The translations under genes were made by a program, and so were the position numbers. The notes beneath the pieces were generated by a model. That model did no database searches. It was not told where the DNA came from and saw only the letters and a program-made list of their open reading frames with translations. A stretch of DNA of 64,000 nt from Mycobacterium sp. 155 (GTDB taxonomy: Bacteria > Actinomycetota > Actinomycetes > Mycobacteriales > Mycobacteriaceae): assembly GCF_000373905.1 (NCBI RefSeq), contig NZ_KB892705.1:1178001-1242000 (forward strand). Reading direction: 5' to 3'. This document shows positions 12,457-29,016 of the stretch, in pieces. The number at the start of each line of letters is the position of its first letter. Position 1 is the stretch's first letter.

Positions 12457-13209
12457 TCAACCGCCCAGGTATTCCGACTCCAGCATCACATCGCGCAGCA
12501 GAGTCTGATACTCGCCGTGGGTCTTGTGTTCCACGGTGTTCCAGTGCGTGCCCTGTTCAGCGCGCATGTAGGCCAGATAGTCGGGCGCCCCGGGAAGTTT
12601 GACGTTGTCAGCGACGACGATCGTCCCTCGGTGCAGCCAGCCCCGGTCCAACACGCGATGAAGATCGGCCAGGTAGACGCTCTTGTTGTGGTCGAGGAAC
12701 ATGAAATCGACTGTGCCCATTGTGAATCCGTGCTGTTCAAGGGTGTCGAGGGTGCGCCCGCCGTCGCCGATGGTCCCCACCACACAGGTGATCCGGTCGG
12801 CCAGCCCGGCGTGAGCCCATATGCTGCGGGCGATCTCGGCGTTCGCGGCGGCTAGTTCGATCGAGAACACGCGCGCTGCCGGCGCCGCTCGGGCGATCCG
12901 CAGCGCGCCGTAGCCGCAATAGGTACCCAACTCCAGCGCAAGCCGTGGGTGTGCGCGGACCACCGCGGCGTCGAGCAGCGCGCCCTTCTCGTCGCCCACG
13001 TTGATCAGGAACGACTCCTGGTAGGCGAATCTGTCGATCGTTGCGATCACGTCATCCGGGTCATCGCGACGGGCATTGGCCATGACGTACTCGGCTGCGG
13101 CCGCCTCGCGTCCGTCGCCGATCTGCCCGGTGGTCATGATACTGCGCTGGCGTAACACCATGCGCCAGAAGGAAGTTCGGAGAAACGGAGCGTGGCGCTG
13201 CCAGCTCAC
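12457..13209 (-). CDS. Catechol-O-methyltransferase-like SAM methyltransferase (Rv1703c type)
   Basis: 250 aa class I methyltransferase. The SAM motif is LALELGTYCGYGALRIAR, followed by FSIELAAANAEIAR; the metal/substrate region MFLDHNKSVY and VVADNVKLPGAPDY is typical of COMT. GTG 13209 overlaps the stop of the upstream FAD oxidase (GTGA), so the two are coupled; ATG 13137 (MTTGQIGDGREA) is a possible shorter start. A COMT-like gene also follows xerD in M. tuberculosis, so this one may be ancestral to the locus. The substrate is unknown. It ends 5 nt from xerD, tail to tail. Confidence 0.88.
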   Translation of the reverse strand: MSWQRHAPFLRTSFWRMVLRQRSIMTTGQIGDGREAAAAEYVMANARRDDPDDVIATIDRFAYQESFLINVGDEKGALLDAAVVRAHPRLALELGTYCGYGALRIARAAPAARVFSIELAAANAEIARSIWAHAGLADRITCVVGTIGDGGRTLDTLEQHGFTMGTVDFMFLDHNKSVYLADLHRVLDRGWLHRGTIVVADNVKLPGAPDYLAYMRAEQGTHWNTVEHKTHGEYQTLLRDVMLESEYLGG

Positions 13210-14531
13210 AGGCGGCCCATCCAGCTGTTGAACAGCCCGTCGGGATCGTATTTGGCGCGCAGTACGTCGAGCCGGGCCATGTTTTCATCGGTGGCGAACC
13301 GGGCGGGCCGCCGGCCGAGGTTCTCATCAGCGAGGCCGACTCCGGTGGCCAGGTGTGCCATGGCCGCCATGTTGTCGCGGGGCCAGTCGCGGTACCGGTT
13401 ATCGTCGGCCGGGTCGGGCCACACAGCGTAGAGCGCCATATTGATCTCGTCCTCCAACCCGTAGAACAGCTCCTCCCGCGCGGGTGACGGGCTCCAGTCG
13501 TACATCAGGAAATGTGACGGCGCCGGCGGCATGGTCTCGACGATACGGTGAATGCCCGGCAGCAGGTCCTCGGCCGATGCCGAGGTCCACATGTTGTCGG
13601 CGACGTAGCGGTGCCCCGGCGGGTAGTTGCTCATGACCGTGCCGTACCAGCTGGTCAGATCGGTGGTGGTGTACGGAATTTTGACGATCGCCCGATCGAC
13701 GGCCGGACAGCTGGACAGGATCGACAGGGCGGCCTCGGCTTCCGCTTCGGTATCGGCGAAGACGGGGGAGGCCACCACGATGGAAGGGCTTTCGAGTCCG
13801 AGGGCGGGCAGATTGCGGGACGTGATGATCTGCAGTTCCACACGGTCGCCGATCTCGGGGCTGATCCGGCGCGCCCAGGTGAAGACGTCGTCGAGCACCT
13901 CGACAGGGTAGATATACAAGCAGCTGCCGCAGACCGCCGGTCGCGGGTGCAGCTGTAGATGAAAGGCCGTCACCACGGCGAAGAATCCGGGCCCGGAACC
14001 GCGTGCCGCCCAGAACAAGTCGGAATTCTCGTCGGCGTCGCAATACATCCGCTGGCCGTCGGCGGTGACGACCTCGACGCCGATGACGCTCTCACATGCG
14101 GGCCCGACCGCCTTGCTGTTCCAGCCGTAGCCGCCCTGCAGCAGATACCCGCCCAGACAGATGCCCTCGTAGTGCCCCGCGGGGAAGAACAGGCCCAGCG
14201 TGTCGAGTTCGGCAGCCAGCTCGCTGCCGACTTTTCCGGGCCCGACGACGGCAGCCATGCGTTCGGCGTCGATCGCACAGTGGTCGAGGCGGCTGACGTC
14301 GAGCAGTGTGCCGCCATCGCGCAGGTGGCTGGCAGTCCAGCTGTATCCACCCGACACGATGCTGATTGGGCCCTGCGCTCCGGACACCGCACATACGACG
14401 TCATCGACGTCGTGCGCCTGCACGATGAGGTCGGGATAGCGGTCAGGCACCAGGCTGTTCCAGACGGTGGCGCGGCGCGCCGCCTCGTAGCCATCAGCGC
14501 CTCGACGGAACTGCCGTGCATCTGTCGACAT
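13206..14531 (-). CDS. FAD-binding oxidoreductase (PCMH/BBE-like)
   Basis: 441 aa. The N-terminal PCMH-type FAD domain is seen in AVSGAQGPISIVSGGYSW and the GGYLLQGGYGWNSKAVG loop; the C-terminus NRYRDWPRDNMAAMAHLA and KYDPDGLFNSW is berberine-bridge-like. Members usually bind FAD covalently through His in the SGGHS loop and Cys in GVCPT; here these positions are Tyr (SGGYS) and, on my alignment, Tyr, so the flavin may be non-covalent. Lies between P450 and methyltransferase genes on the same strand, 25 nt after the P450 stop. Substrate unknown. Confidence 0.88.
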   Translation of the reverse strand: MSTDARQFRRGADGYEAARRATVWNSLVPDRYPDLIVQAHDVDDVVCAVSGAQGPISIVSGGYSWTASHLRDGGTLLDVSRLDHCAIDAERMAAVVGPGKVGSELAAELDTLGLFFPAGHYEGICLGGYLLQGGYGWNSKAVGPACESVIGVEVVTADGQRMYCDADENSDLFWAARGSGPGFFAVVTAFHLQLHPRPAVCGSCLYIYPVEVLDDVFTWARRISPEIGDRVELQIITSRNLPALGLESPSIVVASPVFADTEAEAEAALSILSSCPAVDRAIVKIPYTTTDLTSWYGTVMSNYPPGHRYVADNMWTSASAEDLLPGIHRIVETMPPAPSHFLMYDWSPSPAREELFYGLEDEINMALYAVWPDPADDNRYRDWPRDNMAAMAHLATGVGLADENLGRRPARFATDENMARLDVLRAKYDPDGLFNSWMGRL

Positions 14532-14556: not shown

Positions 14557-15876
14557 TCAATAGCGATCGATGACGTCGAGGGTCACCTCGCGTGCGGGAG
14601 CCACGGCAATTCCCCGCGCTGCGCTGCGTGGCGCGGAGCGAGCGCGATCCCGCGCCGGCATCCGCAGGTCCAATGTCTTCATGATCGTCGCGATGGCGAT
14701 GGCAAGCTCCGAATTTGCGAATGCCGCCCCGATGCACCGACGGTAACCGCCGCCGAACGGTGCGAACTGGAACGGTGAGACTTTGGAGTCCATGAATCGC
14801 TCCGGGCGGAACTGCTCCGGTTCGGTCCAGATTGCCGGATTGAAATGCAGCGCGTACAAGGCGATTCCCACGACCTGACCACTCGTGCACTCGACACCGC
14901 CGATGGTCATGGGGCTCGTCAGTCGACGCAGCACGACGGGAACAGGCGGATGCATGCGCAGTGTCTCTTTGATGACCGCGCCGAGGTAGGGCAGCGCGAT
15001 CATCTCCGCCGGAGTTTGAGCCTGGGCCACCTCATCGGCGACCCGTTGCCGGACGGCGTCGTCGCGGTAGATGTGATAAAGCGTCCACACCATCGAGGTG
15101 GCGGTCGTCTCGTGGCCAGCGGCGAGCAGCGTTCTGAGCTGATCGTGGATGGCCTGGCCGTTGCGACCCCGACCGCTTTCGTCGGTCGCCGACAGCAGAA
15201 TGTCGAGCATGTCGGAGTCGGCGAGGCTGCTGCGGGTCCGGGTGTCCATGTCGTCCGAGAGCAGCCGGTCGAGATCGTCGCGCAGCCGTAGGAGCCGCGC
15301 CCACGGGCCGTAGCCGCCGAGTCCGCGCCGCAACGCGGGAAGCAGCATCAGTGGCGCAGTGTTGGCCCGCATCAGAGCGGTGATCGCCTGGGTGTACATG
15401 GCGCGCCGGTCGGGCTCGGCGACGCTGAACACCACCCGGATGGCGATGTGCAGCGTGACGTTGACGGCCAGCCGGCGCACGGCGATCGAGTCACCGGGCC
15501 GTACGGTTTGGATCTCCTCGTGGGTCGCCGAGCAGATGATGTCGCTGTACTTCTTGACCCGTTCCCCGTGGAAGGCCGGCATCAACAGACCGCGTTCACG
15601 ATGGTGCTGTTCACCGGACAGCAAGATCAAAGATCCGGGCCCGACAACCGGTTCGATTGGATTCGGCGTGGGTGCCTCAGACAGCGCAGCAGTCATGGTG
15701 AGGATGTCGCGGGCAGCGTCGGCGGTTCCGAAGAACATGACCTCGCCGAGGCCGGGGAAGCTCAGTTCGATGGGGCTGCGCCTTGAGGCATGTCGGTGGA
15801 AGAACCTGACCGGGTCGACCCCGGCAGCAGCCGCGCGGAGGAGCCCAGCGGGTGACTTGATCAACTGAGCCGGCAT
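14557..15876 (-). CDS. Cytochrome P450
   Basis: 439 aa. I-helix oxygen-binding motif LLAAGHETTATSM, K-helix ETLRMHPP (ExxR), PERF-type segment FRPERFMDS and heme loop FGGGYRRCIG with Cys381. Sequence style (GEQHHRERGLLMPAFHGERV) resembles bacterial CYP110-like P450s, so an aliphatic or terpenoid substrate is plausible but not shown. I chose ATG 15876 because AAGGACA lies directly upstream; an in-frame TTG 30 nt earlier is less likely. Heads a minus-strand unit divergent from the biosynthetic operon at 17139. Confidence 0.92.
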   Translation of the reverse strand: MPAQLIKSPAGLLRAAAAGVDPVRFFHRHASRRSPIELSFPGLGEVMFFGTADAARDILTMTAALSEAPTPNPIEPVVGPGSLILLSGEQHHRERGLLMPAFHGERVKKYSDIICSATHEEIQTVRPGDSIAVRRLAVNVTLHIAIRVVFSVAEPDRRAMYTQAITALMRANTAPLMLLPALRRGLGGYGPWARLLRLRDDLDRLLSDDMDTRTRSSLADSDMLDILLSATDESGRGRNGQAIHDQLRTLLAAGHETTATSMVWTLYHIYRDDAVRQRVADEVAQAQTPAEMIALPYLGAVIKETLRMHPPVPVVLRRLTSPMTIGGVECTSGQVVGIALYALHFNPAIWTEPEQFRPERFMDSKVSPFQFAPFGGGYRRCIGAAFANSELAIAIATIMKTLDLRMPARDRARSAPRSAARGIAVAPAREVTLDVIDRY

Positions 15877-16703
15877 TGTCCTTGCCTTCCGGAGAAGATT
15901 TCGCAATGATCGACACTATTGCGAAACCGTCTCATTCGGGTCACGCTCGAAAGCTCGGTGTTCTGGTGCTGGCCGAAACCCGAATCAGATAGCCGGAATG
16001 GGCGCAGAATTGCGCTTATGTAACAGCGTTTGTTTGCACGGCCTGACCCGCTACGCGGCGCGAGAGAGCGCGCGGTTTGGATCGGTACGGCATTGGTCTC
16101 GCCTTGGTTTTCGCTGGTAGCGACCGCCGGTCGGAGCGCTTCGGAGGCACGTCGGCGATCTCTCGCCTGAGGTCGGACGGTATCCGGTCGCCGTGTGGAC
16201 GCGACTGTCGTCAGACCATGGATCGGCTCGATGGAATTCGCGGTATTTACCGCGTATTTCACGAGTTCAAGTGCGGGGGAAATGTTTATTGCGGCTAATT
16301 CGCATTGTTTTGTCAAGTTTATTAAAGTTGACATTTTGAATATCGCATTTACACGGTGAAAAGCTAGGCCAGATAAATGCAGCATTTGTTCTGGCATTTC
16401 CCCCCACCCTCCCTGTGGTATTGCCCCATCGGGCAACCGCGGTGATTTGCGAGATACAAGGATGGCACACGTATACCACGTCGAGCAATCGTCAAGTCAG
16501 CAAACGATGCCCCGGGGTACTGACCAGCTCGTCAGGGTGGTCAGCGGCGTCCCGGTGGCTGTGTATATTACTTCGCCCAGTTTGCGCGAGCGCGTCGTGT
16601 CGTGTGTGCGGGGCGACGGTTCTCGTGCTGTACGAGGAGTCGATGACGGGGAAAATAAATTTGACTTCGCACAGAAATCGCTGGAAACAACCTGTACACG
16701 GCG

Positions 16704-16877
16704 GTGCGGCTCGAATTGGATGAAGCGCCTTGCGGGTGGTATACGAGGCTTCCGTACTGGTCGGAGCGGTTTGGTGAGATTCGGCGCGACGTTGCGAGAG
16801 TGGACATCTTTCAACATTTGCAGATGCAACTAGACGGGCTCATGTGGCGCCACGGGCGTGGGGTAGCGCACGTCTGA
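16704..16877 (+). CDS. Possible small protein, 57 aa (or the 3' part of a frameshifted gene)
   Basis: The frame GTG 16704 to TGA 16875 reads as a well-balanced protein rich in aromatic and charged residues (RLELDEAPCGWYTRLPYW, then SERFGEIRRDVARVDIFQHL). The frame stays open upstream to about 16661, and a different frame is open from 16447, so a single frameshift near 16680 would produce a protein of roughly 135 aa. I do not recognise a family. It precedes the biosynthetic operon by 260 nt on the same strand. Confidence 0.35.
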   Translation: MRLELDEAPCGWYTRLPYWSERFGEIRRDVARVDIFQHLQMQLDGLMWRHGRGVAHV

Positions 16878-17078
16878 AGTTGCCGCCGCCCTCGCCGTGC
16901 GTGTCGCTGCGTAATATTGCTACTATCGGGTAAACGACCTGCTCGCCTGAACCCCACGCCGGTCCCCTAAGCGGCTCGGTAAAGATCAGGTACTTGCACG
17001 CGAAAAGATCGGAATGCCCGCCCTGTGTTTTCTCTTATCTACGTCCGGATAGCGTTGTATGTTGTTGCTCTCAGCGCT

Positions 17079-17099
17079 GTTGTGAACGGGGATCACAAC
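17079..17099. promoter_or_regulatory. Candidate operator upstream of the biosynthetic operon
   Basis: Inverted repeat GTTGTGA - 7 nt - TCACAAC, centred 50 nt upstream of the ThDP gene start. Arm length and spacing are those of a dimeric regulator site. No regulator gene is present in the cluster, so the binding protein would be encoded elsewhere. Confidence 0.5.
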
Positions 17100-17138
17100 T
17101 TTCGTCGTTGTTTCACATCGCTGATACGAGGGTGAAAT

Positions 17139-18899
17139 ATGGCAGCTACAGCAAGGGACGTATCTGAACGCCCGACCACGTACCGTGTCGTCGATCATAT
17201 CGTCGACTATCTGGCCGCCGGCGGGGTGACCCATATGTTCGGTGTGGACGGCGCCAACATCGAAGACTTGTACGACGCCGCATACTTCCGCGACGGTATC
17301 ACCGCCGTACTCGCAAAACATGAGTTCTCCGCCGCGACCATGGCCGACGGCTACAGTCGCAGCGGCGCGGGCCTCGGCGTCGTCATGGCGACCTCTGGTG
17401 GAGGATGCCTGAATCTGATACCCGGGTTGGGCGAATCACTTGCGAGCAGGGTTCCGGTCTTGGCTCTGGTCGGCCAGACGCCCACGACGCTCGACGGCCG
17501 GGGCAGCTTCCAGGACACCAGCGGCCGCGCGGGTTCGCTGGATGCCGAGGCGCTGTTCGGAGCGGTGTCGGTGAGTTGTGAACGTGTGCTGCGACCCAGC
17601 GACATCGTCACCGCGCTGCCACGTGCGATCGCCGCGGCGCGCACCGGCGGTCCGGCAGTCCTGCTTTTGCCTAAAGACATCCAGCAGCAGACCGTGGCGC
17701 TCGGCGGACCGATCTTGCGTAACGGTCAGGGGTTTGGTCAGAAGCAGGTAGGCGATCCACACCCGCTCATCCGGGCGCTACGTAGGGCCAACGGGCCCAT
17801 CACGATCATCGCCGGAGAGCAGGTCGCCCGAGACGACGCACGCGCCGAACTCGAGCAGTTGCGCGCGGTGCTGCGGGCACGCGTCGCCTGTGTTCCTGAC
17901 GCCAAGGACGTCGCGGGGATCCCCGGGCTGGGATCGTCGTCGGCATTGGGTGTCACCGGGGTGATCGGGCATCCGGGCGCGGTCGACGCGGTGGCTGGCA
18001 GCGCCGTATGTCTGCTGGTCGGTACCCGCATGCCCGTGATGGCCCGGACCGGGCTCGATGCCGTCCTCGGCACAACGCACACACTGTCGATCGGTTCGGC
18101 GCCACCGTATCTACCCTGCACCCACGTTCACACCGAGGACCTGCAGGCCTCCCTGTCGCGGTTGACCCGCGCGTTGACCGGCCATGGCAGGCCGCTGGGC
18201 GTTCGGGTGCCAGACGTGGTGCCGCAGACCGAGCTTGCCCCACCGTCGTGCTCTGACGACGGCGTGCGCTACCGCGACGCGATGCTCGCCCTGGACCGCG
18301 CGCTGCCCGACGAGGTGAACATCGTCGTCGATGCCGGCAACACCGGGGCCTCGGCAGTCCACTATCTGCCGGTACGGCGGGGTGGACGGTTCGTCGTCGC
18401 CCTGGGGATGGGCGGGATGGGCTACAGCTTCGGTGCGGGAATCGGGATGGCGTTCGCCCAGCGCAGGCGCACGGTGATCATCGCCGGCGACGGATCCTTC
18501 TACATGCACGGGTTGGAGCTGCACACCGCCATCCAGTACCGGTTGCCGGTGACAGTGGTGTTGTTCAACAACAACGCCCACGCGATGTGCGTGACTCGTG
18601 AGCAGCTGTACTACGACGACGCATACAGCTACAACCGGTTCTCGCCCAGCCGGCTCGGCGCCGGGTTGGCGGCGATGTTCCCGGGTCTGGCCTCGATCGA
18701 CGTCGCCACGATCGATCGACTGCCCGCTGCGCTCGACGAGGCACTCACGACCGATGGCCCATCGGTCGTCAGTATCGAATGTTCTGCGGACGAGATACCA
18801 CCGTTCGCACCGTTTCTCTCGGCGATCGGCACGGCCGTTGCCGAGAACAGTCACACAACAGAACAGGAGGGTACGGTCAATGTCCCTGCCAGCGCTTGA
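17139..18899 (+). CDS. ThDP-dependent enzyme, acetolactate synthase/decarboxylase-like
   Basis: 586 aa with the three-domain plan of the family: N-terminal PYR domain with the ThDP-activating Glu62 (AKHEFSAATMADGYSR), central Rossmann-like domain, and C-terminal PP domain with the Mg-ThDP motif GDGSFYMHG (from about residue 450) ending in FNNNAHAM near 480. It would form or transfer an acyl anion from a 2-oxo acid, by decarboxylation or carboligation. GAGGG is 6 nt upstream of ATG 17139. First gene of the operon; its 3' end overlaps the next gene by 20 nt. It is not part of an ilvB-ilvN pair, so a specialised role is likely. Confidence 0.9.
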   Translation: MAATARDVSERPTTYRVVDHIVDYLAAGGVTHMFGVDGANIEDLYDAAYFRDGITAVLAKHEFSAATMADGYSRSGAGLGVVMATSGGGCLNLIPGLGESLASRVPVLALVGQTPTTLDGRGSFQDTSGRAGSLDAEALFGAVSVSCERVLRPSDIVTALPRAIAAARTGGPAVLLLPKDIQQQTVALGGPILRNGQGFGQKQVGDPHPLIRALRRANGPITIIAGEQVARDDARAELEQLRAVLRARVACVPDAKDVAGIPGLGSSSALGVTGVIGHPGAVDAVAGSAVCLLVGTRMPVMARTGLDAVLGTTHTLSIGSAPPYLPCTHVHTEDLQASLSRLTRALTGHGRPLGVRVPDVVPQTELAPPSCSDDGVRYRDAMLALDRALPDEVNIVVDAGNTGASAVHYLPVRRGGRFVVALGMGGMGYSFGAGIGMAFAQRRRTVIIAGDGSFYMHGLELHTAIQYRLPVTVVLFNNNAHAMCVTREQLYYDDAYSYNRFSPSRLGAGLAAMFPGLASIDVATIDRLPAALDEALTTDGPSVVSIECSADEIPPFAPFLSAIGTAVAENSHTTEQEGTVNVPASA

Positions 18900-19581
18900 C
18901 GACATCGCCACCCATTCCGGCAGCTCTGACCCCATTGAGGGGGTCCACCGGGTCGAGACGTCGCCGCGGGAGAAGGCCACGCCGATCATCCTGGAGATGA
19001 TGCATTCGGTGTATCCGCACGATGAGGTGTTTGGCGAGTATTGCACCGTCAACGACTACATCGATTGCCCCCCCGACGAACTGTACGAATACCTGGCCGA
19101 CACTCGCAGTCTCGAGGAATGGACCTACAGCCTGCGCGGTTTCAAGGAAACCGATGAGCCCGGTTTGTGGCAGGCGTGGGACAAATTGGGTTCGGAGACC
19201 GAGATCTACACCCGGACCGTGGCCAATCCCCAGGCGCGCACGGTTGATTACCACTGCGCATGGGATCAAGGCAAGCATCTCTGGATGATCTACCTGATGC
19301 GGGTCGTCGACGCGCAGTTGGTGTTCAACAAGCCGGGATCGGTTGTGCTGTGGACGAATTGCCATCATCCGTTCTATGACCACAATGCCTATCCGGAGAC
19401 AGCGCCGCCGAACCGCCCGGTGTGGGTCGGTGACTTCTGGGACATGTTCGGCGCCGGTCATCTGCTGGAAATGCGCAATCTCAAGGCCATCGCCGAGTAC
19501 CGGCACCACAATGGGCTGCCCATCACCCCCGATTGGATGCGAGAAGCCAACCAACACGAAGCAAGCGTGGGTCGAGGATGA
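18880..19581 (+). CDS. SRPBCC (START/polyketide-cyclase-like) protein
   Basis: 233 aa. I chose ATG 18880 with AGGAGG (18865-18870) upstream, inside the end of the ThDP gene. The segment IDCPPDELYEYLADTRSLEE is a typical SRPBCC N-terminal start, followed by alternating strand patterns and an unusually His/Trp-rich second half (LWTNCHHPFYDHNAYPE, YRHHNGLP). Such proteins bind hydrophobic ligands and act as aromatase/cyclases or lipid carriers. The His-rich part raises the possibility of metal binding (inference). ATGA overlap with the next gene. Confidence 0.8.
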   Translation: MSLPALDDIATHSGSSDPIEGVHRVETSPREKATPIILEMMHSVYPHDEVFGEYCTVNDYIDCPPDELYEYLADTRSLEEWTYSLRGFKETDEPGLWQAWDKLGSETEIYTRTVANPQARTVDYHCAWDQGKHLWMIYLMRVVDAQLVFNKPGSVVLWTNCHHPFYDHNAYPETAPPNRPVWVGDFWDMFGAGHLLEMRNLKAIAEYRHHNGLPITPDWMREANQHEASVGRG

Positions 19582-20606
19582 GGGACACTCGTAATCCGGC
19601 GGTCAGCCTGCTCGACGTCTCCACTTATCTACCGGAGAACCGAGTGCCGGCACAGTGGTACACCGACCACTCGGAAACCGATTCACTGCGCGACAACCCC
19701 ATGTTCGCGCCGCCTGAATACCGGCATCATTCGACATTCGACGAATCCAATGTCGACATGATCGAGCGGGCGGTTGCGGGACTGACGGCCAGGCACGGGA
19801 GTGGACTGCTCGATGAGGTCGATATCCTGCTGACGCATTCGCAGATGCCCGATCTGCCGATCGTCGGTGCCGGTGGTGAAACGGCCGCGCGCCTCGGCAT
19901 CAAACCCAAGTGGATCCTCGACGTGCACAACGGCGGCTGCGCGGCATTTGTGTACATGCTCAGCCTCGCGCGCCAACTGTTGTGGTCCGGTGCGGGCCGT
20001 ACCGCGTTGATCGCCGCCTCGGTGAACGCCGCAGGCAAGATCTTCGAACAGGATCAGGTTCGTAAGTTGGCGCAGGCGTCGGTTCCCGGCGATGGTGCCG
20101 CAGTGGGATTGGTCACGCTGTCCGACAAGTCGCCAGTGCTGGACATCGAATGCCGGTTCTTCGGTGAGAACGCGGTCGATATGACCCTCGACACCGATCC
20201 GCCGCGGAAGTGGTGGGAGGCCGGACCCGGACAGGGCTACGTCGGTTTCAGCGAGGCCAAGATCATGAAGGTGCTCTCGCGCGGCAACCGTCAGGTGCCT
20301 CAGGTGGTCAAGGCGGTGTGCGAGCAGATCGGGGTGAAATCGAACGACCTCGACCTGTTGGTGACCAACCAGCCCAATCGGCTGTTGCTACGCAACTGGG
20401 ACGAAGCGCTCGAGCTGCCCCGCGAACGGCACCACGACACCTTCGGTCAGTGCGGCAATCTCTTCGCGGTCGGCATACCCGCCAACCTGGAGGCTGCGAT
20501 CGACAACGGTCAGGTCAAGACCGGCGATGTCGTGATGATGGCGGGATTCGCCCACGCGGGGGACTTCGCGGGTGCCGCCGCAATTCAATGGGGTGGGAGG
20601 CCGTAA
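19578..20606 (+). CDS. KAS III-like ketosynthase or acyltransferase with altered catalytic triad
   Basis: 342 aa thiolase-fold protein. The nucleophile is Cys121 in NGGCAAFVYM and the conserved Asn is Asn294 in FGQCGNLFAVG. The catalytic His expected in a 'xHQAN' loop is replaced by Asn264 in LLVTNQPNRLL. His is required for decarboxylative condensation, so the enzyme may instead transfer an acyl group (as in the CerJ-type branch) or bind a thioester. ATG 19578 overlaps the previous stop; its TAA shares a base with the ATG of the ACP. Physically between a cyclase-like protein and an ACP, so its substrate is probably ACP-bound. Confidence 0.87.
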   Translation: MRDTRNPAVSLLDVSTYLPENRVPAQWYTDHSETDSLRDNPMFAPPEYRHHSTFDESNVDMIERAVAGLTARHGSGLLDEVDILLTHSQMPDLPIVGAGGETAARLGIKPKWILDVHNGGCAAFVYMLSLARQLLWSGAGRTALIAASVNAAGKIFEQDQVRKLAQASVPGDGAAVGLVTLSDKSPVLDIECRFFGENAVDMTLDTDPPRKWWEAGPGQGYVGFSEAKIMKVLSRGNRQVPQVVKAVCEQIGVKSNDLDLLVTNQPNRLLLRNWDEALELPRERHHDTFGQCGNLFAVGIPANLEAAIDNGQVKTGDVVMMAGFAHAGDFAGAAAIQWGGRP

Positions 20607-20875
20607 TGACATCTCCGACAGGACAGGTACCGAGTCTGGATGCTGTCACCGACGACATCATCGCCATGATCTCGGCCGAGATGCCGATCCCGGGTCTCTC
20701 CGCGGAATCCTCGCTGCTGGATGGCGGACTCGACTCATTGCGGGTGATGTCGCTCGTCCTCCGGATCGAGAACCGCTGGGAGATCGACTTGGACGCCGAC
20801 GACGCCGATGAGTTGCGGACCGTCGGTGATCTCGGCCGACTCGTGCTGCGGCGCATCGTGGAGAAGCAGTCATGA
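20606..20875 (+). CDS. Stand-alone acyl carrier protein
   Basis: 89 aa. Four-helix ACP pattern with the phosphopantetheine attachment Ser44 in GGLDSLRVMSLVLRIE. It starts at ATG 20606 overlapping the KAS stop (TAATG), and its stop overlaps the ligase start (ATGA). It is likely to be loaded by the adjacent acyl-AMP ligase and to present the acyl chain to the KAS-like and ThDP enzymes. Confidence 0.92.
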   Translation: MTSPTGQVPSLDAVTDDIIAMISAEMPIPGLSAESSLLDGGLDSLRVMSLVLRIENRWEIDLDADDADELRTVGDLGRLVLRRIVEKQS

Positions 20876-22674
20876 AAGGCCCCGACGCCATCGTCCCGAA
20901 GTACGAAACGCTCCCCGCTGCTCTCGCGGCCGCGGCACGCACTGATCTGAGCTTGTTCTTCGTGAACACCCGCGAAGAAGACCAGGAGGTCCCCAAGGCG
21001 CGGATCTATGAGCGGGCGCTGTCAATCTCCGCGGATCTTATGAAACGTGGTGTGCGCAAAGGGGATCGGGTTGCGCTCGTGTTGCCGACCTGCCCGGAGT
21101 TCGTGGAGAGCTTCTTCGGGATACTGTGCGCGGGGGCCATTCCGGTGCCGCTGTACCCGCCGGTGCGGCTGGGCAAGATGGACGAATACCACCAGAAGAC
21201 CGCGGCCATGTTGCAGTCCGCCGACGTGGCACTGGTGGTGACCGACGAGCGTATCCGTCGCTTTCTCGGCGTCCCGGTTGAGGCCGCAGCACCGCGGTTG
21301 GGCTGCGTGACCGCGTCGGATCTGGGTGGTGCGGACTCTGATCAGGTCGAGGTAGCTCCTGACGACATCGCCTTGATCCAGTTCTCTTCGGGCACAACGC
21401 ACGACCCCAAACCCGTGGCGCTGACTCACCGCAACCTGTTGTCCAATCTCGCCTCGATCGACAGCCGCCTCCAGGAGGAGGGCACTGTCAATCCAGTGGG
21501 TGTGTCCTGGCTGCCGCTGTATCACGACATGGGGTTGATCGGGAATCTGTTGTCGGCGTTCTATGTCGAGGGGGCACTGGTATTGCTGCCGCCCGAGTTG
21601 TTCGTTGCGACGCCGGCCGCGTGGTTGCGGGCCATCTCCCGGTACCGCGGCACCTACTCGGCCGCACCCAACTTCGCGTTCAACCTGTGCGTGAACCGGA
21701 TCAAAGACGAGGAGTTGGACGGGGTCGACCTGTCCTCGTGGAGCGTGTGCTTCAACGGTGCGGAATCCGTCGTCGCCGCGGTGCAGCGCCGATTCGGTGA
21801 GCGGTTCGCACCGTGGGGTTTCGATCCGTCAGCGCTGACGCCCTGCTACGGGATGGCCGAGGCATCACTCGCACTGACGTTCAAGCCGTCCAAGACCCAG
21901 TTCAGAACTTATGGCGTGGAAGGTGACGCCCTGGCCTACTCGGGTCGGGTGGTACCGGGACGCAAAGAACTGGTGAGCGTGGGCCAGCCCCTGGCCGGTG
22001 TCGAGATCGAGATCCGCGACGAGCTTTCACAGACATTGGATCCCGACAAGGTCGGAAGCATCTTTGTCCGCGGTCCCAGTGTGATGGTCGGGTACTTCGG
22101 CCGCCCCGATCTCACCGATCAGGCCTTGCACGAGGGCTGGCTTGAAACCGGTGACCTCGGCTTCGTCCACGATGGCGAGTTGTTCGTCTGTGGCCGTGCC
22201 AAGGACACCGTGATCATCCGGGGTGCAAACCATGCGCCGCAGGATTTCGAGGCGGCGCTCGACGGGCTGCCCGGGGTGCGCACCGGATGTGCGGTGGCGG
22301 TGGGCTTTGTTCCTGCCGGCGAGGAGGAGGAAGCGCTGGCGCTGCTCGTGGAAACCACTTCTGACGCGCCGGCCGGCCTGGCGAGCGACGTCTCGAAGCG
22401 AGTGTGGGAGCGCACCGGCATCCTGGCGGCTCATGTCGAGTTACTCGCCCCGGGCACGCTGCCGCGGACCTCCAGCGGAAAATTGCGCCGGCGGGAGTCT
22501 CGTAATCAATGGCTGGCCGGCACACTCGTGGCGCCCAAGAAGGTCTCCGCCATACGGTTGATGTGGTACGCGGCGAAGGGGCAGGTTTCGCTTGCCAAGG
22601 CCGCCTATACCCGTCTTGTCCCAAACAAACGACCGGATGACCGTGCTGTTCGCGCGGGCGGGAGGGAATCATGA
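20872..22674 (+). CDS. Fatty-acyl-AMP ligase (FAAL)-like adenylating enzyme
   Basis: 600 aa ANL-family enzyme. P-loop variant IQFSSGTTHDPKPVALTHRN, FAAL-type WLPLYHDMGLIGNLL, A5 region CYGMAEASLALTFKP, A7 WLETGDLGFVHDGELFVCGR and the C-terminal A10 Lys in LPRTSSGKLRRRE. The FAAL style and the adjacent ACP suggest it forms an acyl-adenylate and transfers the acyl group to the ACP rather than to CoA. The chain length or aryl nature of the substrate cannot be read. Overlaps both neighbours by 4 nt. Confidence 0.88.
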   Translation: MKGPDAIVPKYETLPAALAAAARTDLSLFFVNTREEDQEVPKARIYERALSISADLMKRGVRKGDRVALVLPTCPEFVESFFGILCAGAIPVPLYPPVRLGKMDEYHQKTAAMLQSADVALVVTDERIRRFLGVPVEAAAPRLGCVTASDLGGADSDQVEVAPDDIALIQFSSGTTHDPKPVALTHRNLLSNLASIDSRLQEEGTVNPVGVSWLPLYHDMGLIGNLLSAFYVEGALVLLPPELFVATPAAWLRAISRYRGTYSAAPNFAFNLCVNRIKDEELDGVDLSSWSVCFNGAESVVAAVQRRFGERFAPWGFDPSALTPCYGMAEASLALTFKPSKTQFRTYGVEGDALAYSGRVVPGRKELVSVGQPLAGVEIEIRDELSQTLDPDKVGSIFVRGPSVMVGYFGRPDLTDQALHEGWLETGDLGFVHDGELFVCGRAKDTVIIRGANHAPQDFEAALDGLPGVRTGCAVAVGFVPAGEEEEALALLVETTSDAPAGLASDVSKRVWERTGILAAHVELLAPGTLPRTSSGKLRRRESRNQWLAGTLVAPKKVSAIRLMWYAAKGQVSLAKAAYTRLVPNKRPDDRAVRAGGRES

Positions 22675-23732
22675 CTGTCATCGCCGAATCTCGGCCGCTG
22701 CCGCGCATCACGGAACTGCCGTTGAATGCTGACATCGGTGCGTTGCCCACGGCGGTGGACCCGATGGCGTTGTCGCTCAACGAGAATCCGTTCCCGCCCC
22801 TGCCGGCGGTACGGTCCGCACTGATCGAATCCATCGATGCCGCCAACCGGTATCCGGAGTTCCTGCCCGAGCGGTTGCGGCACCTCATAGCCGGCCATAT
22901 CGGAATCTCCGACGAGCAGGTCATCCTCGGGCCCGGGGCCACCGGCGTCATGCTGCAGGTGCTGCATGCCATCACCGACCCGGGGGACCGGATTGTCTTC
23001 GCGGATCCGACGTTCGAGGGATACGCGATCGTCTCGGCCATGGTGCGGATCTCACCGATCAAGGTGCCGCTGAACAGCCTTGGTGGCCACGACCTCGACG
23101 CCATGGCCGACGCCGCATCCGAGGCGAAGGTGGTGGCCATCTGCCGGCCGCACAATCCCACGGGCACAGTGGAGTCGGCGGCAGATCTGGAAGCCTTCCT
23201 GGCCCGTATTCCCAGCGACACCGTGGTACTCATCGACGAGGCGTACGCGGAATTCGTCGGACCGGGCCACCGCATCGACTCGGTCGATCTCGTGCGTCGG
23301 TTCCCCAACGTCGTGGTGATCCGAACCTTCTCGAAAGCATATGGACTCGCCGGCCTGCGCATCGGTTACGCATTCGGATCTCGCGGACTTGCCGCCAAAC
23401 TGTGGGCCATGCAGTTGCCATTCGGGATGAGCACCACGAGCCTGGTTGCGGTTGCAGCGTCTTACCGGGCGGAATCGCAACTGCTGCAACGGATCCGGTT
23501 TCTCACCTCGGAGCGCAGGAACCTGCGGGCGGGATTGCGGGCAATGGGAATCGCCAGCACCGAGGCTCATGCCAACTTCATCTACCTACCCGCAAGCGGA
23601 GTGCCCTGGCGCGACGTGTTCGATGATGCGGGCGTGCGGGTCAAGCACTACCCGGACGGTGGTGTGCGCGTCACCATTGGCGGAAGGTCATCGACTGGGG
23701 CAGTCCTGACCGCGCTGCGGAGCAAGCTGTAG
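22671..23732 (+). CDS. PLP-dependent aminotransferase, histidinol-phosphate aminotransferase-like
   Basis: 353 aa fold-type I class II aminotransferase. ALSLNENPFPPLP near residue 35, the GATGVMLQVLH PLP-phosphate loop, RPHNPTGTVES, DEAYAEF and the Schiff-base Lys222 in TFSKAYGLAGLRIGYAF. The overall form is HisC-like, but cluster context (ACP, ligase, no his genes) suggests a dedicated role such as aminating a keto group generated by the ThDP or KAS enzyme. Start ATG 22671 overlaps the ligase stop. Confidence 0.9.
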   Translation: MTVIAESRPLPRITELPLNADIGALPTAVDPMALSLNENPFPPLPAVRSALIESIDAANRYPEFLPERLRHLIAGHIGISDEQVILGPGATGVMLQVLHAITDPGDRIVFADPTFEGYAIVSAMVRISPIKVPLNSLGGHDLDAMADAASEAKVVAICRPHNPTGTVESAADLEAFLARIPSDTVVLIDEAYAEFVGPGHRIDSVDLVRRFPNVVVIRTFSKAYGLAGLRIGYAFGSRGLAAKLWAMQLPFGMSTTSLVAVAASYRAESQLLQRIRFLTSERRNLRAGLRAMGIASTEAHANFIYLPASGVPWRDVFDDAGVRVKHYPDGGVRVTIGGRSSTGAVLTALRSKL

Positions 23733-23741
23733 GAGGCCGCG

Positions 23742-24890
23742 GTGCGCGAGCATCAGGTTGCCGTCGTCGGGGCGGGATCCTCGGGGGTCGCTGTGGCATT
23801 GAGCCTGAGCGACAGGGGAATCCGCCCGCTGCTGATCGACCGGGCCGATCATGTCGGGTCGTCCTGGAAAGGTCGACCCGACCGGCTGAAGCTCAACACC
23901 GGTCGGCGGACGTCCCACATGCCCAGCCGGCCGTACCCTAAGGGCACCGCGATCTTCCCGACCCGGGATCAGGTTGTCGCGCACCTGAACCATCACGCGC
24001 ATGAAGATGGCCTTGACCTCATGCTCGGCACATGTGTGGCCAGGATCGACAAGATGGCCGGCAACTGGGTACTGGCCACGACTTCGGGAGATATCAGTGC
24101 CCAGCAGATCGTGGTGGCCACCGGCTACGAGCACACCCCGAGAATCCCGGATTGGCCCGGCCTCAGCTCGTACCGAGGAACTGTACTGCACTCGGCGAAT
24201 TACCGAAATCCCAAGCCGTACCTAGGGAAACGCGTGCTGGTGGTCGGGGCGGGATCCTCGGCGATGGAAATCGTGTACGACGTCGCCAGCGGGGGAGCGG
24301 CGCAGGCTTGGCTGGCAGTGCGCACTGCACCGCACATCCTGCTGCGTGCACTGCCCGGTGGATTCCCGTCGGACTACATCGCCAACCGGCTCTACGACGC
24401 GCCGCTGTGGTTCGCCGACGCGGTCTCCCGGGTCGCGCTCCGTGTGCACGTCAAAGACCTGTCCGAATTTGGTTTGCCGACACCGAGCGAAGGGGTGTTC
24501 ACCAGGGGCAAGCGCCTCAGCCGGGCGCCGGTGATCGTGGACCGCGAGGTGATCGGGGCCATCCGAGCCCGGCTATTTGAGGTAGTACCCACCGTCGAAT
24601 CATTCAGTGAGGACTCGGTTCTGCTCATCGACGGTCAGCGGTTACAACCCGACGTCGTGATCTGTGCGACCGGATACCGGTGTGGTCTGGAACCAATGGT
24701 CGGCCATCTCGGGGTCTTGGACGAACGTGGCCTGCCGCGCTCGACCGGCCCGGTTCCTGCGGCGCCAGGCCTGAGGTTCGTCGGATTCCTGTCCCGCCCG
24801 GGGCTCATTTCGTTCGTCGCGAAACAGTCCGTTCAGGTCGCCGAGGGCGTCGCCGACGAGCTCGATCGGGCACTGTCTCTCGTACCATGA
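23742..24890 (+). CDS. Class B flavin-dependent monooxygenase (FMO/YUCCA-like)
   Basis: 382 aa. FAD-binding GAGSSG near the N-terminus (VAVVGAGSSGVAVALSL), second dinucleotide motif VLVVGAGSSAMEIVYD for NADPH, and ATGYEHTPRIPDWPG and ATGYRCGL motifs typical of FMO-type enzymes. Such enzymes oxygenate nitrogen, sulfur or activated carbon; after an aminotransferase, N-oxidation is attractive but inferred. GTG 23742 with AGGAGG immediately upstream (23731-23736). ATGA overlap with the exporter gene. Confidence 0.88.
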   Translation: MREHQVAVVGAGSSGVAVALSLSDRGIRPLLIDRADHVGSSWKGRPDRLKLNTGRRTSHMPSRPYPKGTAIFPTRDQVVAHLNHHAHEDGLDLMLGTCVARIDKMAGNWVLATTSGDISAQQIVVATGYEHTPRIPDWPGLSSYRGTVLHSANYRNPKPYLGKRVLVVGAGSSAMEIVYDVASGGAAQAWLAVRTAPHILLRALPGGFPSDYIANRLYDAPLWFADAVSRVALRVHVKDLSEFGLPTPSEGVFTRGKRLSRAPVIVDREVIGAIRARLFEVVPTVESFSEDSVLLIDGQRLQPDVVICATGYRCGLEPMVGHLGVLDERGLPRSTGPVPAAPGLRFVGFLSRPGLISFVAKQSVQVAEGVADELDRALSLVP

Positions 24891-26429
24891 CGCGAATCGC
24901 GCGGCTTGCCATGGCTATGCCTCGGCGAGTCATGGCGGTCGCGCTATTGATGATGCTCGGCTGCGCCGTGTTCGGGGTCCCAGTGGCAAAGCACCTGTCC
25001 GGCGGAGGATTTCGCGATCCTGGATCGGAATCATCGCGGGCCTCAACCATATTGGCCGACACTTTCCATCAGCCGGACATGCAGTTCCTTGTCACCGTCA
25101 GTGATCCACAGGGAATCTCGAGTGCCCGGGCGCGGACCATCGGAACCGACATCACCACCCGGCTCACAGAATCGCCCCATGTCGCCTACGTCGAATCGCC
25201 CTGGAACACCGCACCGCAGAACGCCGCCCAGTTCACGAGCACCGATGGCACGTCGGGGCTGATCGTCATCGCGCTGCTCCTGGCACTCGGTGCCCCATTC
25301 TTCGGGGGCCGGTGGGGCTTCCCCGACGACCGGGTGCTGCCGACGTCGACCACGGCCCGTCAGGTCGGTGACCAGCTCCGCAGCGACTTCGCCACGGATT
25401 CGGCCGACAACATCACGGTCGTCGTGCCGGACTTCACCGGTGTCAGCCCCGCCGAACTGGCCCGCTACGCCACAGCTCTGTCGGCCGTATCTGACGTCTC
25501 GTGGGTGTCCTCGGCCGTCGGCACGTTCAAGGACGGGCATCGGGCCGGGCCCGGACCCGAGGGAACCCTGGCAGACGGCACGACCTACTTGACGGTGGCG
25601 GGCACAGCCCCGTTGTTCTCCGACGCCTCGAACGTCCAGCTGGACCGGCTGCACGCGGTCCCGGGACCGGATGGCCGCAGTGTCCTGCTGACCGGTACCG
25701 CGCAGATCAACCGGGACGTCGTCGCCGCGGTGACCTCGGGCCTGCCGAAAGTGCTGGCACTGATCGCTGTCACGAGCTTCGTGTTGCTGTTCCTGCTTAC
25801 CGGCAGTGTCGTGCTGCCGCTCAAGACGCTTGTCCTCAACGTACTGTCGCTGACCGCCGCGTTCGGCGCGCTGGTGTGGATTTTCCAGGACGGTCACCTC
25901 GGTGCGCTGGGCACCACGGTGACCGGCACCCTGGCCTCCAACATGCCGGTGCTGCTGTTCTGCATCACCTTCGGGTTGTCCATGGATTACGAGGTGTTCC
26001 TCATCTCGCGGATCCGCGAATACTGGCTGGCTTCCGGTCACGCCGACGATGGGCAGGTCTCGGAATCTGCTCGCGTCCGGACTTGATGAGGCGGTCGCAC
26101 TGGGCCTGGCCCACACCGGCCGTGTGATCACCGCCGCGGCGGTCATCATGTCCATCTCTTTCGCTGTGCTGATAGCCGCGCAGGTGTCGCTCATGCGGAT
26201 GTTCGGCGTCGGCCTGACGATCGCGGTGCTGATGGACGCGACACTGGTCCGGCTGGTCCTGGTACCGGCATTCATGCATGTGATGGGCGGGGTGAACTGG
26301 TGGGCTCCGGCACCGCTGGTCCGGCTGCACAACCGCATCGGAATCAGCGAGGAAAGCGGTGAGAGGGCTCCGACGGGTGGGCACCGAGCCACGGACCCCG
26401 ACAGCCCGGCCCAAGCGGTGCAGGCTTGA
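24887..26429 (+). pseudogene. Decayed MMPL/RND-family exporter (internal deletion and frameshift)
   Basis: ATG 24887 starts a normal MMPL N-terminus (TM1, then the LADTFHQPDMQFLVTV periplasmic domain), but near 25262-25275 the protein jumps from GTSGLIVIA straight to LLLALGAPFFGGRWGFPDD, which in intact homologues lies after the first transmembrane bundle. About 200 residues are missing in frame. Near 26045-26085 the frame shifts: frame 1 stops at 26086, while frame 3 continues LLASGLDEAVALGLAHTGR through the last three helices to TGA 26427. The second bundle's GLSMDYEVFLISRIREYWL motif is present. Two lesions make transport unlikely; a sequencing error could explain the shift but not the deletion. 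Confidence 0.82.
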
Positions 26430-26557
26430 TCCGCACGTTGACCGCGGGTCGACCCGGTACGGGCGCGTCGCAACGTTAAACTTGCCCGGATGTTCGCCAA
26501 GTGTGGGTTGCCCGGCCGGTCGTGGTCGCGCATCGGGCGCTTGCGCGAGGAGCGGCC

Positions 26558-27427
26558 ATGATCGACGGCGACGGACACGACCCGGTACCCGAGCTGGGCC
26601 TGACCGGTCGGCCGCTACGCACCATTCCCGAGCCCCAGCCCCGCACCACGCATGGTCCGGCCAAGGTCATCGCGATGTGCAACCAGAAGGGCGGGGTCGG
26701 TAAGACCACCTCGACCATCAACCTGGGTGCCAGCCTGGCTGAATACGGCCGCCGGGTGCTGCTGGTGGACCTGGACCCGCAGGGGGCGCTCTCGGCGGGC
26801 CTGGGGGTACCGCACTACGAGCTCGACCAGACGGTGCACAACCTGCTGGTCGAGCCGCGGGTCTCGATCGACGACGTGCTCATCAAGACCAGGGTCAGCG
26901 GCCTGGACCTGGTGCCCAGCAACATCGACCTTTCGGCGGCCGAGATCCAGCTGGTCAACGAGGTGGGTCGCGAGCAGTCCCTGGGGCGGGCGTTGTATCC
27001 GGTACTCGACCGCTACGACTATGTGCTGGTCGACTGCCAGCCGTCGCTGGGCCTGCTCACCGTCAACGGACTGGCCTGCGCCGACGGCGTCATCATCCCG
27101 ACCGAATGCGAATACTTCTCCCTGCGTGGGCTGGCGCTGCTCACTGACACCGTCGACAAGGTGCACGACCGGCTCAATCCGCGACTGCAGATCAGCGGGA
27201 TCCTGGTCACCCGGTACGACCCCAGGACGGTCAACGCCCGTGAGGTGATGGCACGCGTGGTCGAGCGCTTCGGTGACCTGGTGTTCGACACCGTCATCAC
27301 CCGCACCGTCCGTTTCCCCGAGACCAGCGTCGCCGGTGAGCCGATCACCACTTGGGCGCCGAAGTCTGCGGGCGCGGCGGCCTACCGAGCACTGGCGGCT
27401 GAAGTCATTCATCGGTTCGGCGTGTGA
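26558..27427 (+). CDS. ParA/Soj-family ATPase (Rv1708 type)
   Basis: 289 aa. Deviant Walker A KGGVGKTT (CNQKGGVGKTTSTINLGAS), LLVDLDPQGALSAGLG, VDCQPSLGLLTVNGL and ITRYDPRTVN-like ILVTRYDPRTVNAREVM place it in the ParA family linked to scpA-scpB. I chose ATG 26558 with GAGGAG 6 nt upstream rather than GTG 26501. Overlaps scpA (GTGTGA). The segment before the start carries a copy of the CGCTTGCGCGAGGAGC motif seen in the xerD repeat. Confidence 0.93.
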   Translation: MIDGDGHDPVPELGLTGRPLRTIPEPQPRTTHGPAKVIAMCNQKGGVGKTTSTINLGASLAEYGRRVLLVDLDPQGALSAGLGVPHYELDQTVHNLLVEPRVSIDDVLIKTRVSGLDLVPSNIDLSAAEIQLVNEVGREQSLGRALYPVLDRYDYVLVDCQPSLGLLTVNGLACADGVIIPTECEYFSLRGLALLTDTVDKVHDRLNPRLQISGILVTRYDPRTVNAREVMARVVERFGDLVFDTVITRTVRFPETSVAGEPITTWAPKSAGAAAYRALAAEVIHRFGV

Positions 27428-28287
27428 ACGATGCCGCGAGCACCGAGGTAACCGATGCCGCCGCGGGCGTAGCACCGGCCGCTGCTTCGGGCGACAGTCA
27501 ATCCGGCCGGTTCCGGGTACGGCTCACCAACTTCGAGGGTCCGTTCGACCTGTTGCTGCAACTGATCTTCGCGCACCGGCTCGACGTCACCGAGGTCGCG
27601 TTGCACCAGGTGACCGACGATTTCATCGCCTACACGAAAGAGATCGGCGCGCAGCTGGAACTCGACGAGACGACGGCGTTCCTGGTGATCGCGGCCACGC
27701 TGCTGGACCTCAAGGCCGCGCGCCTGCTGCCCGCCGGAGAGGTACACGACGAGGAGGATCTGGCGCTGCTGGAGGTCCGCGATCTGCTGTTCGCGCGGCT
27801 GCTGCAGTACCGCGCGTTCAAACACGTCGCCGAGATGTTCGCCGAACTGGAGGCCGCGGCGCTGCGCAGCTATCCGCGCGCGGTGGCGCTGGAGGACCGG
27901 TATTCCGATCTGCTGCCCGAGGTGATGCTCGGGGTGGATGCCGAGAAGTTCGCCACCATCGCCGCGGCCGCTTTCACCCCGCGCCCGGTGCCGACGGTCG
28001 GGACCGACCATATCCACGCGCCAATGGTGTCGGTGCCCGAGCAGGCACATCGACTGCTGGACCTGCTCGAACAGCGCGGGATCGGCGAATGGGCCACGTT
28101 CACCGAGCTGGTGGCGGACTGTACGGTCGGGATCGAGATCGTCGGGCGGTTCCTGGCGCTGCTCGAATTGTTCCGGGCCCGGGCGGTAGCATTCGAGCAA
28201 TCAGAACCGCTTGGTGTGCTCCAGGTTTCGTGGACCGGAGATCGGCCTACCAGCGAACACCTGGCAACCGCTGACGCGGAAGAATAG
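27424..28287 (+). CDS. scpA: Segregation and condensation protein A
   Basis: 287 aa kleisin of the SMC-ScpAB condensin. N-terminal FEGPFDLLLQLIFAHRLDVTEVA, the acidic central region and C-terminal winged-helix segment (EWATFTELVADCTVGIEIVGRFLALLEL, partly quoted) are characteristic. The N-terminal ~28 residues are Ala-rich and variable. GTG start overlaps parA; scpB follows 9 nt after the stop. Confidence 0.95.
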   Translation: MNDAASTEVTDAAAGVAPAAASGDSQSGRFRVRLTNFEGPFDLLLQLIFAHRLDVTEVALHQVTDDFIAYTKEIGAQLELDETTAFLVIAATLLDLKAARLLPAGEVHDEEDLALLEVRDLLFARLLQYRAFKHVAEMFAELEAAALRSYPRAVALEDRYSDLLPEVMLGVDAEKFATIAAAAFTPRPVPTVGTDHIHAPMVSVPEQAHRLLDLLEQRGIGEWATFTELVADCTVGIEIVGRFLALLELFRARAVAFEQSEPLGVLQVSWTGDRPTSEHLATADAEE

Positions 28288-28296
28288 CGAGACGAA

Positions 28297-29016
28297 ATGG
28301 CTAACGATGACGAGATCCCGTCTGTTGTCGACCTCGGGGCCGACCGGGACATCGACGTCGTCGCCGTCTCCGAGCTGGAGGACGGCGAGCTGGGGGCCGT
28401 GCTGGAGGCGCTACTGCTGGTGGTCGACACCCCGGTGACGGTCGACGCGCTGGCGAGCGCCACCGAACAACCGGCCAACCGGATCACCGCCAAGCTGCGG
28501 TTGATGGCCGAGGAACTGGCAGCCCGCGACAGCGGCATCGACCTGCGGGAGGCCGGCGGCGGGTGGCGGATGTACACCCGTGCGCGCTACGCCCCGTACG
28601 TGGAGCGCCTCCTGCTGGACGGAGCACGGTCCAAACTCACCCGCGCCGCACTGGAAACGCTGGCGGTGGTCGCCTACCGCCAACCCGTGACCAGGACGCG
28701 GGTCAGTGCGGTCCGCGGCGTCAACGTCGACGCTGTGATGCGGACGCTGCTGGCCCGCGGGTTGATCACGGAGGCCGGTACCGATCCGGACACCGGGGCC
28801 ACGGCATTCGCCACCACCGAGTTGTTCCTGGAGCGGCTGGGGCTCAGCTCACTGACCGATCTACCCGACATCGCGCCGCTGTTGCCCGATGTCGACGTGA
28901 TCGACGACCTGAGCGAATCCCTCGGTGACGAACCGCGATTCGCCAAACTCAACGGTGGTTCGCCGAAGGGCGACCAGCCGCAGACCTTCGACGTGGACAA
29001 GGACTTACATGGTTGA
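28297..29016 (+). CDS. scpB: Segregation and condensation protein B
   Basis: 239 aa; two winged-helix domains. Landmarks are LEALLLVVDTPVTVDALA, DLREAGGGWRMYTR and LTRAALETLAVVAYRQPVTR. Forms the kleisin-associated dimer of the SMC complex with ScpA. Acidic C-terminal tail. Overlaps the pseudouridine synthase by 8 nt. Confidence 0.95.
   Translation: MANDDEIPSVVDLGADRDIDVVAVSELEDGELGAVLEALLLVVDTPVTVDALASATEQPANRITAKLRLMAEELAARDSGIDLREAGGGWRMYTRARYAPYVERLLLDGARSKLTRAALETLAVVAYRQPVTRTRVSAVRGVNVDAVMRTLLARGLITEAGTDPDTGATAFATTELFLERLGLSSLTDLPDIAPLLPDVDVIDDLSESLGDEPRFAKLNGGSPKGDQPQTFDVDKDLHG

Follow-up and report, generated by a model that had tools for sequence, protein, structure and literature searches.

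We analysed a stretch of 64,000 nucleotides (hereafter, the window) from Mycobacterium sp. 155 (contig NZ_KB892705.1, positions 1,178,001 to 1,242,000; host genome of 4.61 Mb in 2 contigs). At 17139-26429 on its + strand it carries an operon whose enzyme set resembles, and probably works like, the machinery with which Streptomyces makes carbazoles, and which is apparently adapted to attach a preformed fatty acid. We consider it reasonably probable that the operon makes a carbazole-type alkaloid with a fatty alkyl chain. In the likeliest scheme, a fatty acyl group on an acyl carrier protein (ACP) would be joined with pyruvate and an arylpyruvate, probably indole-3-pyruvate, to form a 1-alkyl-2-methylcarbazole resembling the lipocarbazoles known from Tsukamurella, a genus that has the same core. 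Homology and conservation show which classes the enzymes belong to, that the genes are inherited together, that the active site of the cyclase is present and that the type of condensing enzyme tracks with the ACP and its ligase.

An earlier reading of the same DNA, made without database searches (the sequence-only reading), had described eight same-strand genes, most of them overlapping, between xerD and the parA-scpAB block. Reading frames and Pfam matches bear out seven of these as intact and coupled, while the eighth, a transporter gene of the MMPL family, is broken. The junctions are, in order, overlaps of 20, 4, 1, 4 and 4 bases, a gap of 9 bases and an overlap of 4 bases, and the flanks are the gene of a XerD-like integrase, ending at 12452, and that of a ParA ATPase, starting at 26501 (Pfam). 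The genes of the operon are:

17139..18899, + strand: thiamine diphosphate (ThDP) acyloin enzyme, putative CqsB3/NzsH role (PF02776, PF00205, PF02775; tree)
18880..19581, + strand: SRPBCC cyclase, putative CqsB2/NzsI role (CqsB2 match, residue alignment)
19578..20606, + strand: condensing enzyme like ketoacyl-ACP synthase III (KAS III), putative CqsB1/NzsJ role (PF08541, PF08545; C121, N264, N294, H326)
20606..20875, + strand: stand-alone ACP, counterpart of CqsB6/NzsE (PF00550, E 7.9e-10; serine motif GLDSL)
20872..22674, + strand: fatty acyl-AMP ligase (FAAL) (PF00501; PDB 3pbk)
22671..23732, + strand: HisC/Pat-like aminotransferase, putative CqsB7 role (PF00155, class I/II; PDB 4r2n)
23742..24890, + strand: flavin monooxygenase of FMO type, putative tailoring enzyme (PF00743, E 6.6e-26; PDB matches)
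24887..26086, + strand: MMPL transporter remnant, first piece (PF03176)
26049..26429, + strand: MMPL transporter remnant, last piece, in another frame (PF03176)

The cyclase and its likeness to CqsB2

Pfam assigns no family to the SRPBCC protein. A profile built from 13 relatives has a sole strong match in PDB, CqsB2 (6ipv, 6ipw; E 1.6e-57, the next match at E 0.77), which is also found with the single sequence (E 3.9e-49). The sequence-only reading was right to see a cyclase in it. According to a 2020 review, CqsB2 serves as the carbazole synthase in carquinostatin biosynthesis, with catalytic residues named as E105, Y144, Y172, H206 and E209 (PMC7466098). In the window protein D101, Y138, Y166, H194 and E197 align on these without offset, so that four of the five are identical and the fifth differs by a conservative change from Glu to Asp. 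Membership in the scytonemin cyclase family was rejected, the match to the ScyC model being weak (E 3.5e-5; 23 bits against a cut-off of 400).

For comparison we assembled 118 loci, all located through the cyclase gene: the best 80 of 482 relatives, 37 stretches chosen from searches of the family, the Streptomyces family and the phylum, and the window. Four are Cqs-like (clade I; L159-L162) and 114 belong with the window (clade II). The pattern of the window protein, with Asp for Glu105 and the other four residues kept, is seen in 113-114 of the 114 clade II loci, the single gap being an interrupted copy with an in-frame TAG (L118, 9788-10399; genome G382, genus g31). Of 306 database proteins, 305 or 306 show it as well. 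A Burkholderia protein (P0119) shares 73% identity with the window cyclase, a likeness that suggests transfer between phyla.

The condensing enzyme

The KAS III-like enzyme has a KAS III structure with an active-site Cys (C121; model confidence score, pLDDT, 92.7), and in 116/116 sequences the condensing set retains its Cys and its Asn (L031 and L056 have no KAS and are excluded from these counts). The catalytic His, at position 264, is Asn in all 112 clade II sequences, and a His stands at position 326, in the C-terminal loop, in 111 of them. This loop has an oxyanion role in KAS enzymes, and H326 may substitute for the lost catalytic His. Such a His/Asn swap at two active-site positions, fixed in 111/112 sequences, is a natural experiment in KAS enzymology. 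The VIA-align list includes the KAS III relatives PqsBC, PqsD and BioZ, and the absence from it of an entry for CqsB1/NzsJ proves nothing.

Only one KAS of the 112 has Gly at position 326 (L155, 10324-11964, Streptomyces family). Genes for an ACP, an HMG-CoA-synthase-like protein and an enoyl-CoA-hydratase-like protein adjoin it, neighbours that also point to acyl-ACP donors.

A KAS that lacks its catalytic His could instead be an O-acyltransferase that transfers the acyl group from the ACP onto the acyloin hydroxyl, in which case the products would be acyloin esters, with precedent in the xenocyloins, and the SRPBCC protein would merely bind or rearrange them. The replacement of the His throughout clade II speaks for this proposal, as does the spontaneous rearrangement of the CqsB1 product to indole esters described in the cited part of PMC7466098; however, near-invariant cyclase residues are hard to explain without ring closure, the condensing set keeps its Cys and Asn throughout and H326, on the alignment, may stand in for the missing His. 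Ester formation of the xenocyloin kind was dropped as our principal interpretation, and we retain it as a distinctly unlikely rival to carbazole formation.

ThDP enzyme, aminotransferase and ligase

The three Pfam domains of the first gene product agree with the acyl-anion enzyme proposed by the sequence-only reading. Homology and position beside the cyclase mark it as related to, and placed as, the Cqs-type ThDP enzyme, the comparison being with loci L159-L162 rather than with CqsB3 itself. A tree of 26 chosen from the 115 ThDP sequences and three paralogues from the same genome groups clades I and II against the paralogues (support 96/91; midpoint root, long outgroup branches). Among PDB entries, BbmA and CsmA rank first by sequence.

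In sequence the ligase resembles FAALs more than it does acyl-CoA ligases. Its best PDB match is a fatty acyl-adenylate ligase (3pbk, E 7.8e-91), FadD23, FadD32 and FadD28 are within the top 18, four of these 18 are named acyl-CoA synthase, and the first 4-coumarate-CoA ligase ranks 19th (E 4e-36). The top NCBIfam model is also a FAAL one, at 449 bits and under its cut-off of 600.

The best PDB match of the aminotransferase is a putative phenylalanine aminotransferase (4r2n, E 2.6e-56), and its family would suit a CqsB7-type role on tryptophan. The same three-enzyme ring assembly could act on another keto acid, either an aliphatic one or phenylpyruvate or 4-hydroxyphenylpyruvate, to give an alkylated naphthalene or benzene catechol or quinone. 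The aryl group is not fixed by sequence, the aminotransferase is of the phenylalanine type by its nearest structure and 38% identical to its nearest paralogue, and the clade stands apart from the Cqs-like loci in the KAS His and the cyclase Glu105. Yet the characterised CqsB2 uses an indole substrate and its residues are kept in the window bar one conservative change, while Tsukamurella makes carbazoles and carries this core. We think a non-indole ring system rather unlikely.

Distribution and joint inheritance

The cyclase gene is present in 202 of 297 Mycobacterium genomes. Across the family, at E 1e-30, it turned up in 151 of 401 genomes, from 16 of 31 genera. It occurs in 41 of 394 genomes of the Streptomyces family (two of them, G603 and G864, with weak matches at E ~4e-4) and in 14 of 396 across the phylum. 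Presence counts here come from tblastn, as the gene caller misplaced starts and, over the cyclase gene, sometimes called the opposite strand (cluster c22).

In 115 of the 118 loci (the exceptions are L027, L031 and L056), genes for the ThDP enzyme, the cyclase and the KAS share a strand and lie within 4.5 kb, a figure that measures linkage rather than frequency since the loci were picked for holding the SRPBCC gene. Of the 115 that have all three, 110 show the order ThDP-SRPBCC-KAS; in L027 no ThDP gene lies within the stretch examined. The trio is also carried by five Tsukamurella genomes (L169-L173), and a protein of Tsukamurella sp. 8F (P0145), which one of the five (G1265) encodes at 100% identity, falls in clade II. 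One genome of the Streptomyces family (G577) holds both a clade I (Cqs-like) locus, L161, and a clade II locus, L156.

The full eight-gene set is far rarer than this core, being found in L022-L025, with only a trace of the MMPL gene in L022. The last-named locus, from Mycobacterium sp. 141, is the nearest named one (98% for the cyclase).

The sequence-only reading had called the operon accessory and co-inherited, and had held that housekeeping homologues without joint inheritance would speak against it. For the core the opposite is found: the trio is linked, the ThDP enzyme is 26-28% identical to its full-length paralogues in the same genome (31-32% for short pieces of one further paralogue), and the next aminotransferase of the genome is 38% identical. 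With paralogues this distant, we rejected the idea that the operon genes are housekeeping copies. By these comparisons the operon is an accessory, co-inherited biosynthetic set, and it lies in a clade sister to Cqs with linked changes in the KAS and cyclase active sites.

A KAS-ACP-FAAL module

Genes for the ACP and the FAAL co-occur in 17 of the 83 loci of the mycobacterial set, and neither is found alone in any. The KAS of 13 other FAAL loci has a median identity of 78.7% to the window KAS, as against 63.7% in 64 loci without a FAAL (Mann-Whitney p 1.6e-8, only a guide as the loci are related). The direction is reversed for the ThDP enzyme (64.5 in 12 FAAL loci, 70.9 in 64 without), and the cyclase shows no difference; these comparisons omit the close relatives of the window (L022-L025) and, for the ThDP enzyme, also L027. 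In a tree of 34 chosen from the 116 KAS and two outgroup KAS, the frames of the outgroup pair running from one stop codon to the next and so including extra N-terminal residues, the FAAL-locus KAS (9 of the 17) form a single group with support 98/100.

A sliding comparison divides the window operon in the same way. The ThDP gene and the start of the cyclase gene resemble xerD-parA loci without a FAAL (L040, L072, L083, L101), which the aminotransferase, flavin monooxygenase and MMPL genes also match, and the KAS resembles that of FAAL loci situated elsewhere (type C). This is most simply read as an exchange of the KAS, ACP and FAAL genes as one unit, as would be expected if the KAS draws its donor from this ACP. 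The sequence-only reading was probably right in proposing that a ligase loads a fatty acid on the stand-alone ACP for use by the KAS-like enzyme.

Proposed pathway

In the carquinostatin/neocarazostatin pathway, CqsB7 converts tryptophan to indole-3-pyruvate, the ThDP enzyme CqsB3/NzsH adds pyruvate and CqsB2/NzsI closes the ring, as described in the cited part of PMC7466098. We infer every substrate and product of the window pathway, and the order of its tailoring steps, by analogy. The aminotransferase would convert an aromatic amino acid, most likely tryptophan, to the arylpyruvate, to which the ThDP enzyme, in the CqsB3/NzsH role, would join pyruvate. The FAAL would activate a free fatty acid as acyl-AMP and load it on the stand-alone ACP, from which the KAS III-like enzyme would take the acyl group onto C121 and condense it with the beta-keto acid, with loss of CO2. 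The SRPBCC cyclase would capture the unstable product, then close and aromatise the new ring. The resulting 1-alkyl-2-methylcarbazole, with oxygen at C3 alone or at both C3 and C4, might then be tailored by the flavin monooxygenase, the P450, the FAD oxidase and the O-methyltransferase.

The sequence-only reading had arrived at a different product, a lipid-derived, N-oxygenated amino ketone, for which the pyridoxal phosphate enzyme would aminate an acyl ketone and the flavin enzyme would oxygenate the nitrogen. The enzyme classes that it names are all present, but it leaves the CqsB2-type cyclase unused, and the flavin monooxygenase is absent from most related loci, in which the core persists. 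Amination and an N-oxygenated product are unsupported because the aminotransferase of the known pathway acts first, removing the amino group of tryptophan (cited part of PMC7466098); in that light the nitrogen of the product would be that of the indole ring. We find the amino ketone hardly credible.

Several observations weigh against a carbazole made in the Cqs manner. The two families have diverged: clade II cyclases are 41-48% identical to the CqsB2 piece, and the window KAS is 27-29% identical to those of the Cqs-like loci L159-L162. Both active-site changes divide them, with the KAS His at 264 present in 4/4 Cqs-like loci and absent from clade II, and with the position of CqsB2 E105 occupied by Asp in 114/114 clade II loci and by Glu in 4/4 Cqs-like ones. 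The gene content is also uneven. ACP and FAAL are missing from 66 of the 83 mycobacterial-set loci, the 13 type C loci have no aminotransferase of the window type (nine of them have a different class I/II aminotransferase near by, cluster c37), and in L031 and L056 the stretch examined holds the cyclase gene but no ThDP or KAS gene, possibly as a relic or in another use of the cyclase. No second, classical KAS III (CqsB5/NzsF) is found among the operon genes, the rest of the genome not having been searched for FabH, and no phytoene-synthase-like prenyltransferase or isopentenyl pyrophosphate isomerase among the operon and divergent genes, the genome elsewhere likewise not having been searched. 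An open-access literature search gave no carbazole from Mycobacterium, though the gene is common there, and no paper linking these genes to the genus. As to indole specificity, we know of no tested enzyme of clade II.

Divergent genes and surroundings

Three genes on the opposite strand were put forward by the sequence-only reading as sources of tailoring steps, which stays plausible, as all three occupy the same place in L022-L025:

12457..13209, - strand: O-methyltransferase, possible tailoring enzyme (PF01596, E 3.2e-16)
13206..14531, - strand: flavin adenine dinucleotide (FAD)-binding oxidase (FAD_binding_4), 441 aa, possible tailoring enzyme (PF01565, E 4.1e-23)
14557..15906, - strand: cytochrome P450, possible tailoring enzyme (PF00067, E 2.8e-58)

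The FAD oxidase has a distant relative in the Cqs-like locus L161 (31% identity over part of its length; Pfam). Compared with L023, the MMPL gene of the window has lost ~0.7 kb of its interior and its final part is frame-shifted; L022 keeps only the last 36 residues, and the copies in L023-L025 look intact. With the MMPL gene of the operon broken, export of the product is a conjecture.

The ~1.2 kb between the P450 gene and the operon (15907-17138) holds no convincing gene, and an Rfam scan of 10000-30000 gave no match. The composition profile shows no sharp island, its sole dip (57% G+C at 16000-16999) lying between the divergent genes. At the 5' end of the XerD-like gene (11355-11508), 4.7 copies of a 33-base repeat encode a recurrent Ser-rich stretch, and this end may be an extended or misplaced start.

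Regulation and significance

Genes for an extracytoplasmic function (ECF) sigma factor and a zinc-finger anti-sigma factor lie on the same strand at most three genes upstream in 36 of 77 loci, a count that rests on a gene caller with start and strand errors, and a MarR gene lies downstream in 47 of the 77. Sigma and anti-sigma matches recur in other genera (L175-L178); the window core itself is not at this site. We take the pair to be SigL-like (SigL/RslA). These neighbours, together with the antioxidant activity reported for bacterial carbazoles (cited part of PMC7466098), suggest a redox role for the product, and a role in redox stress becomes testable.

If the carbazole assignment is true, an overlooked alkaloid-lipid pathway exists in a large share of Mycobacterium species and in many Nocardia, Gordonia, Tsukamurella, Rhodococcus and Streptomyces relatives, and a genetic handle is gained on the lipocarbazoles, perhaps on mono-oxygenated carbazoles, whose machinery, including that of the lipocarbazoles' class, is given as unidentified in the cited part of the 2020 review (PMC7466098). 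A bolder and more doubtful proposal, which we advance tentatively and would not expect to hold in all its parts, is that mycobacteria and their relatives possess a second class of carbazole-forming enzymes, with the KAS His relocated (H264/N326 to N264/H326) and the cyclase Glu105 changed to Asp, that makes fatty-alkyl, mono-oxygenated, lipocarbazole-like lipids as widespread redox protectants under a SigL-type sigma factor.

Comparison with known systems

The sequence-only reading did not recognise the gene combination as a characterised pathway, a view that is overturned by the carquinostatin/neocarazostatin set. The cqs and nzs clusters of Streptomyces share with the window a ThDP enzyme, a KAS III-like enzyme, a CqsB2-type cyclase (with Y144, Y172, H206 and E209), an aminotransferase and a stand-alone ACP. 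The window differs from them in the KAS His/Asn swap, in the change of cyclase E105 to Asp, in its Mycobacterium host and in having a FAAL where Streptomyces has a classical KAS III (CqsB5/NzsF). The scytonemin pathway offers a looser parallel: ScyA, a ThDP enzyme, couples arylpyruvates before the cyclase ScyC acts, as ThDP coupling would precede cyclisation here, but unlike the window it has no KAS or ACP step.

The chlocarbazomycin cluster of Streptomyces (chlCz) likewise has a HisC-like aminotransferase, a ThDP enzyme, a KAS III, an ACP and an SRPBCC protein, and its FAD-binding oxidoreductase is given as 441, the length in residues of the window oxidase; it differs in its proposed acetyl-ACP donor, its short-chain dehydrogenases/reductases and its halogenase, and the likeness is to a proposed pathway, by description, in the cited part of PMC10100901. 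Closest in expected product are the lipocarbazoles, a class also named in the cited part of PMC11350554, which come from Tsukamurella pseudospumae (cited part of PMC7466098, its reference 7): they belong to the 1-alkyl-2-methylcarbazole class expected of the window operon, and the core is shared at the level of the genus, as a candidate link between genes and product.

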